Shown here: one piece after another, positions 5,656 to 29,744 of the stretch
Numbering within the stretch: position 1 is the stretch's first letter
Layout of the letters: every line of letters starts with the position of its first letter
Assembly: GCA_028707495.1 (NCBI GenBank)
Contig: JAQWAS010000001.1
Coordinates: 1-48,381 of the forward strand
Direction of reading: 5' to 3'
DNA: 48,381 nucleotides
Source: Patescibacteria group bacterium
GTDB taxonomy: Bacteria > Patescibacteriota > Patescibacteriia > UBA2591 > JAQWAS01
The notes under the pieces: model-generated
The model's database searches: none
Told to the model about the DNA's origin: nothing
The model's input: the letters and a program-made list of their open reading frames with translations, nothing else
Made by a program: the position numbers and the translations under genes

Positions 5656-5930
5656 TGTCATCCTGGAGTCCGCCAGTGGGTGGATGATAGGATCCCGAGA
5701 TGTTTACAAAAAACGTTTAGAACAGATTCCCCTCCTTACGAAGGAGGGGTGCCCGCCGACTCGGCGGGTGGGGTGGTTCTGGTTATCTTAAAAACAGAAT
5801 CAACCACCCCCTAACCCTCTCCTTATAAAAAGGAGGGGAGAATAGAAAAATAGTTTTTAAGCGCCAGTTGGTTATCTCACGGGATTCTATCAGTCACCTG
5901 CCGATTCGGCAGGTTCCTTCCAGAATGACA
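5656..5930. repeat. GTCATCCTGGA element interrupted by a second element
   Basis: The outer element starts TGTCATCCTGGAGTCCGCC at 5656 and ends CAGAATGACA at 5930. A complete CCCCTCC element (5727-5843) sits in its middle. The outer flanks match the element at 5318-5440 in the opposite orientation. Confidence 0.8.
5727..5843. repeat. Complete CCCCTCC palindromic element (gene-less)
   Basis: Two small CCCCTCCTT...AAGGAGGGG hairpins stand at the ends. Inside them GGGGTGGTTCTG faces AATCAACCACCCC, so the whole can fold into a cross. The left arm carries an extra GC-rich hairpin CCCGCCGACTCGGCGGG. Same family as the element carrying the DUF559 gene at 20563-21034. Confidence 0.88.
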
Positions 5931-14291: not shown

Positions 14292-14720
14292 TGTCATTCC
14301 CGCGAAGGCGGGAATCCAGGGTGGATCACACTTAAACGTTAATTTAAAAAAATAAAAATTAGTCACATTAAAATGTTTTTCACAAACAAGTATTATGTAT
14401 ATATACTAGCTAGTCAACGCAATGGTACTTTATATGTAGGAGTAACTTCAGAGATTAAGAAAAGAGTTTATCAGCACAAACAGGGCGTAGTAGATAGCTT
14501 TACTAAAAGATACAAAATCAATAGATTAGTTTATTATGAAGAATATAATGATATTAATTTAGCTTTAGAACGCGAAAAACAACTTAAAAAGTGGTTTAGA
14601 TCCTGGAAGATTAGATTAATTGAAGAATTTAATTCACACTGGAGAGATTTATACGATGATTTACTTTAAAAATTTATTATACCAATTAAACACTGGATTC
14701 CCGCCTTCGCGGGAATGACA
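14292..14720. mobile_element. Putative mobile element: GIY-YIG nuclease between 28-bp perfect inverted repeats
   Basis: Positions 14292-14319 and 14693-14720 are exact reverse complements over 28 bases. Each arm is itself a hairpin with ATTCCCGC and GCGGGAAT around GAAG. The nuclease gene fills the space between. The arm core matches the ATTCCC-N8-GGGAAT form known from Neisseria dRS3 repeats. No other copy of this arm is seen in the window. Mobility is inference. Confidence 0.65.
14373..14669 (+). CDS. GIY-YIG endonuclease domain protein
   Basis: A 98-residue single-domain nuclease. The family's two short motifs are present as YYVYIL (residues 7-12) and TLYVGVT (19-25). The catalytic arginine is probably Arg31 in KKRVYQHK, and a metal-binding glutamate lies in LALEREKQL (Glu66 or Glu68). 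It resembles the compact UPF0213-type nucleases, whose role is poorly known. It lies exactly within the inverted repeat 14292-14720, 53 bases from the left arm and 23 from the right. That suggests it acts on that palindrome, for example to mobilise it; this is inferred from position only. Confidence 0.9.
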   Translation: MFFTNKYYVYILASQRNGTLYVGVTSEIKKRVYQHKQGVVDSFTKRYKINRLVYYEEYNDINLALEREKQLKKWFRSWKIRLIEEFNSHWRDLYDDLL

Positions 14721-18151: not shown

Positions 18152-18220
18152 TGTCATGCTGAATTTATTTCAGCATCTGTGCGGGCGTATGACAGATCCT
18201 GAACCAAGTTCAGGATGACA
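18152..18220. repeat. TGTCATGCTGAA palindromic element
   Basis: The left hairpin is TGCTGAA/TTCAGCA and the right hairpin CCTGAA/TTCAGG, bounded by TGTCA and TGACA. It is very similar to 29596-29664; after both, a GTTTGG...GCTACCAC stretch also matches, so the repeat may extend about 45 bases further. Confidence 0.8.
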
Positions 18221-18300
18221 AATCGAAGACGTTTGGCTACCACCCCAAATCCCATATATCTGTTGCTATGTAATTTTATTAATCTTTTAAATTTAAAAAC

Positions 18301-20562: not shown

Positions 20563-21034
20563 TTCCCCTCCTTACCAAGGAGGGGATAAAGGGGTGGTTC
20601 TTAATTAATTTATAAAATATGGCTTCATTTTATAATCAAAAACGGCAAAAAAGCACTAGACAGAGGTTGCGTAACAATATGACGCAAGCAGAAATAAATT
20701 TATGGAAAAAGTTGAGAAATAGCTCTGCGGGTTATAAATTTAGAAGACAACATGGTGTTGGTAAGTATATTGTAGATTTTTATTGTCCTAAATTGAATTT
20801 GATAGTCGAATTGGAAGGAGACGTGCATGGTTTAGATAAACAGGTTAGAAAAGATATGAAAAGATTTAAATTTTTTGAAGAACGTGGTTTTAATATTAAG
20901 CGCTATACCAATAAAGATGTTTTAAATAATTTAGATGATGTTTTGGATGATTTATATTATTTTTGTAAGAAGTTGGATTTGGGGTAATTGACGATCAACC
21001 ACCCCCGCCCCCTCCTTAAAAAGGAGGGGAGAAT
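20563..21034. mobile_element. CCCCTCC palindromic element carrying a DUF559 endonuclease
   Basis: The left arm (20563-20600: CCCCTCC hairpin, then GGGGTGGTTC) and right arm (20993-21034: ATCAACCACCCCC, then CCCTCCTTAAAAAGGAGGGG) are the two halves of the dispersed element found gene-less at 5727, 18704, 21085 and 31678. Instead of the usual 20-30 base centre, the arms enclose one complete nuclease gene. I read it as the autonomous form of the family; mobility is inferred. Confidence 0.75.
20619..20987 (+). CDS. DUF559 endonuclease (restriction-like/Vsr-like fold)
   Basis: A 122-residue nuclease of the DUF559 family. The signature runs from MTQAEINLWKKLR (Glu25) through GYKFRRQHGVGKYIVDFYCP (Asp53) to LNLIVELEGDVH (Glu64, Glu66, His70). 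The acidic residues match the metal site of the PD-(D/E)xK/Vsr fold. An N-terminal basic stretch (KRQKSTRQRLRNN) could contact DNA. It starts 19 bases inside the left arm and stops six bases before the right arm of a dispersed palindrome, so it most likely acts on this repeat. No methyltransferase is nearby, which argues against a restriction system. Confidence 0.92.
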   Translation: MASFYNQKRQKSTRQRLRNNMTQAEINLWKKLRNSSAGYKFRRQHGVGKYIVDFYCPKLNLIVELEGDVHGLDKQVRKDMKRFKFFEERGFNIKRYTNKDVLNNLDDVLDDLYYFCKKLDLG

Positions 21035-29595: not shown

Positions 29596-29664
29596 TGTCA
29601 TGCTGAATTTATTTCAGCATCTAGGTTAGCATATAATAGATTTTGAATTAAATTCGGGATGACA
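29596..29664. repeat. TGTCATGCTGAA palindromic element
   Basis: TGTCATGCTGAATTTATTTC at the left is identical to the start of 18152-18220. The right end is TTCGGGATGACA. The following GTTTGGTTGCTACCAC also matches. Together with 2816-2939 this is a third full copy. Confidence 0.8.
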
Positions 29665-29744
29665 GATAAAAATGTTTGGTTGCTACCACACTTATGGAGC
29701 TGTTACTAAGATTTAATTTTTTATATTTTTATATCAAAAATCAT

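Follow-up and report, generated by a model that had tools for sequence, protein, structure and literature searches.

A stand-alone DUF559 nuclease gene between inverted BoxC/PIT-like triplex arms, a candidate mobile element without a transposase

Knowledge of BoxC/PIT triplex repeats goes back to the 1990s. In a survey of 2015, their intrastrand triplex motif was detected in more than 260 bacterial genomes, with triplex formation demonstrated in vitro for the E. coli motif, more rearrangement around that motif and a link to genome instability; two unlike motif types were seen to form inverted pairs, and remnants of transposases or integrases were not found nearby. PIT elements were reported to have neither promoter nor terminator activity (PMC4666352). 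In REPtrons (REP/BIME repeats with TnpA-REP/RAYT), dispersed palindromes flank a cognate nuclease gene whose presence tracks the repeats with cognate specificity; the enzyme is a HuH tyrosine transposase, a GTAG tag is present, and tnpA-REP usually occurs as a single copy with no sign of moving (PMC8266576). MITEs with an autonomous partner are short, have many copies and sharp boundaries, and share their inverted ends with a gene-bearing element; they have a transposase partner and a target-site duplication. EDxHD/Vsr-like homing endonucleases such as I-Bth0305I (3r3p) are selfish and stand-alone, and their genes occupy an intron, an intein or one conserved allele. As for the DUF559 family, work of 2005 put YcjD close to Vsr within the PD-(D/E)XK superfamily (PMC1189080), and a Caulobacter DUF559 protein has been reported to be Vsr-like (PMC12907096). 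We found no link between DUF559 and palindromes in the searchable part of the open-licence PubMed Central literature, preprints being outside its scope.

The DNA analysed here is a stretch of 48,381 nucleotides from a Patescibacteria group bacterium, referred to as the window. A preliminary description of it had noted two arms with exactly one gene inside, encoding a DUF559 nuclease of 122 residues, and this arrangement was borne out, the ORF being the sole gene between the left and right arms (Table 1). The ATG lies 19 bases after the GGTT (20599) of the left arm, as had been stated. The distance of six bases given for the stop codon and the right arm is about right if ATC belongs to the arm, but becomes nine when counted to AACCACCCC (20997). 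Each arm consists of a hairpin with an all-C/T 5′ side, a short linker and a G/T-rich strand. Aligned with the purine stem AAGGAGGGG in reverse, GGGGTGGTT matches at every base as the purine-motif triplex rule requires (G on G, T on A), and the window arms obey this rule over 9 bases. The cruciform proposed earlier is still one possible structure of the arms, but GGGGTGGTT also has the sequence expected of a third strand in a triplex with its own hairpin. The window contains eight pyrimidine-first hairpins with stems of at least 9 bases and no purine-first ones, against none in each of 30 Markov shuffles, which excludes chance. An Rfam scan matched only tRNAs and a SAM riboswitch, and the arms are therefore not a described RNA family.

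Table 1. Positions of the arm-gene-arm unit and of related copies in the window.
Feature	Start	End	Strand	Description
Left arm	20563	20601	+	Hairpin CCCCTCCTT-ACC-AAGGAGGGG, linker ATAA, third strand GGGGTGGTT towards gene
DUF559 nuclease gene	20619	20987	+	122 aa
Right arm	20997	21034	-	Inverted; third strand GGGGGTGGTT (reverse strand), hairpin CCCCTCCTT-TTT-AAGGAGGGG
Flank	21035	21084	.	Separates gene-bearing and gene-less copies; resembles flanks before 20563 and after 21186
Gene-less copy	5727	5844	+	Extra hairpin (TGCCCGCCGACTCGGCGGGT) within left linker
Gene-less copy	18704	18821	+	Form as in 5727 copy, 85% identical
Gene-less copy	21085	21186	+	Left arm 39/39 identical to gene-bearing copy
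Gene-less copy	31678	31780	+	
Half copy	2170	2208	+	Left arm only

Judged by their sequence, the arms read as the BoxC/PIT intrastrand triplex motif. They share with the E. coli motif TMECO (PMC4666352) a pyrimidine-purine hairpin with a third strand, the second loop of TMECO being the 3-base TTA, and BoxC/PIT and the window element alike form inverted pairs of unlike arms that are dispersed, intergenic and strain-variable. The preliminary description had taken the arms for the ends of a mobile repeat, a view supported here, and had missed their identity as this known motif. The difference is that no mobility gene was found near the motif in that work, whereas the DUF559 arm pairs enclose a nuclease gene and whole units are seen to be gained or lost. 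The GTAG tag at the foot of the palindrome is absent from the window arms, and no HuH tyrosine transposase gene lies between them, only the DUF559 gene. Nor was a methyltransferase present among the neighbours scanned with Pfam, again as described before.

The 122-residue protein matched PF04480 (DUF559) in Pfam with 104 bits (cut-off 20.6) and retained all invariant residues of the family (E25, D53, E64, H70, D79). An AlphaFold model (pLDDT 89) had its best PDB fold matches in NGO0050 (3hrl) and the homing endonuclease I-Bth0305I (3r3p; Foldseek E 1e-3, TM 0.77 by target), with a weaker match to Vsr (1vsr). The modelled fold says that the protein should be a PD-(D/E)XK nuclease of the Vsr/EDxHD type; it tells nuclease, not substrate. 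A reading of the unit as a defence system was dropped, the PADLOC matches being weak and partial only.

All the copies listed before are real, the gene-less ones (5727, 18704, 21085, 31678) as well as the half copy (2171), and the left arm of the gene-bearing copy is indeed the same as that of the 21085 copy (Table 1). A search of the 857-kb genome with the arms revealed more copies at C4:3406, C4:69591, C5:60452 and C6:38375, together with a single arm at C10:14741 on another contig; the DUF559 gene of the window is the only one in this genome. A short AT-rich flank recurs three times, before, between and after the gene-bearing and 21085 copies (84%), and the two copies therefore look like a tandem duplication. 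Elsewhere in the window, positions 195-422 hold two adjoining direct repeats of 114 bases each that are 93% identical.

The association between DUF559 genes and arms extends over many phyla. A single scan of public genomes with the protein as the only query gave 80 loci from Patescibacteria, Bacteroidota, Pseudomonadota, Thermodesulfobacteriota, Elusimicrobia, Calditrichota, Myxococcota, Bacillota and others. Under a hairpin definition that was our own and was fixed after the first loci (set B and the GIY-YIG control were later or independent), pyrimidine-first hairpins with a stem of at least 7 occurred at 4.9 per kb within 200 bases of DUF559 and at 0.16 per kb elsewhere in the same loci (155 in 31.5 kb against 62 in 392 kb); hairpins of the opposite polarity numbered one and three, respectively. 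At least one side carried a hairpin at 73 of the 80 loci, and no hairpin of the arm kind was detectable at the other seven. Both sides carried one at 48/77 DUF559 loci (62%) and at 4/286 neighbouring control ORFs (1.4%; Fisher 1e-34), and in a second sample (set B), in which DUF559 genes were picked by the Pfam model within Patescibacteria, at 22/29 DUF559 genes and 1/57 control ORFs (Fisher 2e-13), p-values that are indicative as the loci are mutually related and not phylogenetically independent. Small GIY-YIG nuclease genes from the same phylum had arms on both sides in none of 29 cases. DUF559 genes thus carry arms far more often than other genes do, as the earlier reading had predicted.

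The arms are also oriented with respect to the gene. A triplex third strand of at least 8 bases was present on the gene-facing side of 127 of 180 arms, compared with 32 on the outer side and three after shuffling. With a linker of 8 bases or fewer, the numbers were 95, 19 and 0. Most linkers (80/132) are 3 nt, as long as the second loop of TMECO, and about a quarter are long (12-28 bases), several of the long ones holding an extra hairpin like the window copies at 5727 and 18704. Gut variants of the arm, at L088 (Ruminococcus) and at L061, L068 and L069 (Bacteroidaceae), have a second hairpin within the linker that precedes the third strand. Next to E. coli ycjD, BoxC-like repeats are only decayed or outward-facing.

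Arms and nuclease co-diverge, another point raised in the preliminary description: protein identity and arm similarity across genomes gave a Mantel r of 0.248, the highest of 2000 permutations being 0.110. DUF559 genes reach up to eight copies per genome. One genus has three to four DUF559 paralogues per genome, each with a separate arm family, and two locus pairs (L132/L134 and L133/L135) retain the same arms in the sister species. Among 287 Patescibacteria genomes, one arm type was present in 24/74 with DUF559 and in 11/213 without it (p=1e-8). The dispersal of arms is genome-specific. In a Ruminococcus genome with one DUF559 gene, that gene's own arm hairpin occurs 50 times, including the two copies that flank the gene; 0-4 copies were counted in 15 further DUF559-bearing genomes from other groups.

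Gain or loss of whole units was seen in draft assemblies of one genus of sister species, where elements were present in G150, G082 and G010, and G032 had neither DUF559 nor the searched arm type. In G150 (C39), a stop codon and a −10 box are separated by an arm-DUF559-arm unit of 467 bp; the sequence at this site is uninterrupted in G032 and G010, a clean empty site. A G082 unit (L136) is missing from G010, the distance between the flanks there being 55 bases in place of 493. Gene-less pairs of 82-113 bp, one of them within coding sequence, are likewise absent from the orthologous sites of sister species. Empty and occupied sites thus exist between sister species for both gene-bearing and gene-less units, the polymorphism that the preliminary description had called for. 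Where two or three sister species lack a unit, gain is simpler than loss, a polarity given by parsimony and not by formal reconstruction. G082 contains 13 gene-less copies of about 90 bp that align from ATTT to AAAT and are wholly divergent beyond. No target-site duplication was obvious by eye in these 13 copies, and a possible AGTA was noted at the L133 site. In a second gene-less family of G082, the arms are those of the DUF559 unit in G082, and the proposed sharing of arms between gene-less and gene-bearing copies of one genome is thus seen there. Of the outcomes that had been named as speaking against the earlier reading (DUF559 genes in relatives without arms, arms equally common around unrelated genes, no empty or occupied sites), none occurred in full, arms being undetectable at 7/80 DUF559 loci.

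Some further sites deserve description. G252 carries a tandem duplicate of a DUF559 unit with 99.6% identity (L141, 6190-7345, G252:C13; period 565 bp, joined at the hairpins), which reflects recent activity or recombination, or an assembly effect. At L142 (6490-6990, G237:C9), the arms look intact but the DUF559 gene between them is decayed and frameshifted, possibly a step towards a gene-less copy; an intact unit lies 1.5 kb away. One intra-coding spot, represented by L250 (5050-5260, G150:C34) and L136 (10406-10491), shows four states in four species (triplex pair, single arm, GTCAT-type repeat, nothing) and is an insertion hot spot. Several other candidates for empty sites were rejected. 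The relatives of the window genome all belong to other families and are too distant, with only short matches of low identity. At the rny-nfo site (L131), three sister species lack the unit but have 1.4 kb of other genes there. As for plasmids, we found no near-identical plasmid lacking the gene that could serve in a strain pair. In E. coli, about 62% of genomes have ycjD and the rest have eefRABCD instead, a replacement.

Taken together, we consider it likely that the unit is a transposase-free mobile element whose sole gene is a stand-alone DUF559 nuclease and whose ends are two inverted arms of the BoxC/PIT kind. The best reading makes the arm-gene-arm unit the autonomous form and the gene-less arm pairs its non-autonomous, MITE-like derivatives. 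We infer that the nuclease drives the movement, and it is probably needed for spread; that it works by cutting the arms in a structure-specific way is a more tentative proposal, about which we are doubtful. In such a scheme, an arm would fold as a hairpin or triplex on single-stranded DNA, such as arises at a replication fork. The nuclease would recognize a folded arm of its own family and nick or cut at the arm, close to it or at a target; the element would then be copied to the broken site through host repair or template switching. Loss of the gene would leave a gene-less pair still responsive in trans. Several points count against this reading. No clear target-site duplication is seen, and no strand-transfer activity is known by which insertion at unrelated sites could be explained. 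Seven of the 80 DUF559 loci show no hairpin of the arm kind, the BoxC-like repeats beside E. coli ycjD are only decayed or outward-facing, and 11 DUF559-negative genomes keep one arm type, as relics or through another driver.

A different origin of the same arrangement would be homing into pre-existing arms, in which DUF559 cuts a gene-less pair and is copied in by gene conversion, the arms spreading by other means. The gene does lie in the spacer of an arm pair that is complete in other respects, copies with and without the gene have arms in common and can even be tandem neighbours, and the protein has a homing-endonuclease fold. At the three DUF559 sites with sister-species sequence, however, the sister had no arms whatever, not even gene-less ones, which disfavours homing into existing arms; arms at unrelated sites would moreover still require a driver, and we regard this origin as unlikely. 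The nuclease might instead be a passenger, with the arms moved or amplified either by an unlinked enzyme or by the host, through fork stalling at triplex DNA, slippage or recombination. That triplex motifs are tied to genome instability in E. coli (PMC4666352) and that some DUF559-negative genomes contain arms would agree with this, yet a single gene family is enclosed across many phyla, which makes such transport improbable. Nor do we give much credence to the accompanying view of DUF559 as cargo retained for some different function, for instance in mismatch repair or defence: the Caulobacter protein is described as acting like Vsr (PMC12907096), but each paralogue has its own arm family, common to its orthologues in sister species, and cargo is not expected to co-diverge.

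Intergenic hairpins are common, and the arms could in principle be ordinary regulatory repeats, terminators or mRNA-stabilizing hairpins that lie by chance around a small gene. This is highly improbable, given that the arms stand on both sides, inverted, with the third strand towards the gene, and are missing at other ORFs and at small GIY-YIG genes. Gene-less pairs inserted inside coding DNA, the empty sites and the lack of promoter or terminator activity of PIT elements (reported in PMC4666352) also argue against it.

Set against the systems described at the outset, the mobile element that we favour resembles several without coinciding with any. As in REPtrons, dispersed palindromes flank a cognate nuclease gene, gene presence tracks the repeats and the pairing is specific, but the enzyme is a PD-(D/E)XK nuclease instead of a HuH transposase and GTAG is lacking. 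The analogy with REP/RAYT drawn in the preliminary description, an autonomous copy with MITE-like offspring, is partly supported; unlike the RAYT gene, the DUF559 gene is multi-copy and mobile. The gene-less pairs are like MITEs in their shortness, shared inverted ends, sharp boundaries and copy number, although the DUF559 unit has no transposase and no clear target-site duplication. With the homing endonucleases it shares the fold and a selfish, stand-alone gene, yet DUF559 units are intergenic, have their own structured ends and occupy unrelated sites, different ones in sister species, instead of a fixed allele. NGO0050 of Neisseria gonorrhoeae (3hrl) and E. coli YcjD belong to the same family, with the same fold and conserved residues and similar hairpins nearby; they differ in that their flanking repeats are longer-range or decayed, and 3hrl was deposited without arm context. 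Since the DUF559 unit departs from the defining features of REPtrons, transposase-partnered MITEs and fixed-allele homing genes, yet is somewhat like all three, we regard it as a new category.

A parallel arrangement is present in the window at 14292-14720, where a GIY-YIG gene (14373-14669, PF01541) lies between inverted copies of another palindrome (GTCATTCCCGCGAAGGCGGGAATCC; GTCATTCCCGCG...CGGGAATCC). The clade of this GIY-YIG gene gave 26 scorable loci (query included), of which 12 had the repeat type on both sides and 20 on at least one side, with a density of 4.5 compared with 0.36 per kb. Palindromes of this type were on both sides of 0/25 DUF559 loci, and triplex arms were found at 0/26 loci of the GIY-YIG clade. 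Gene-less GTCAT...ATC palindromes occur in the window at 2816, 18152-18223 and 29596-29667, one of them an inverted pair, with many more copies in the other contigs of the genome, and a second copy of the GIY-YIG protein of 14373, 95% identical, is encoded at G000:C3:63150-63443. Two unrelated nuclease families with two unrelated palindromes suggest a general principle. It is conceivable, at a little under an even chance, that at least two unrelated nuclease folds (DUF559 and the GIY-YIG clade) each drive their own dispersed palindromes and form a widespread, transposase-free selfish class that explains many 'orphan' palindromic repeats, BoxC/PIT included.

The DUF559 nuclease is the first good candidate for the spreader of BoxC/PIT repeats, and with one cognate nuclease gene within such arms across phyla, the origin of these repeats becomes directly testable. 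If the nuclease drives the spread, palindromes would have a transposase-free way to move, and a function would be found for a 'domain of unknown function' widespread in bacteria. The family would then also be a source of nucleases that read folded DNA.
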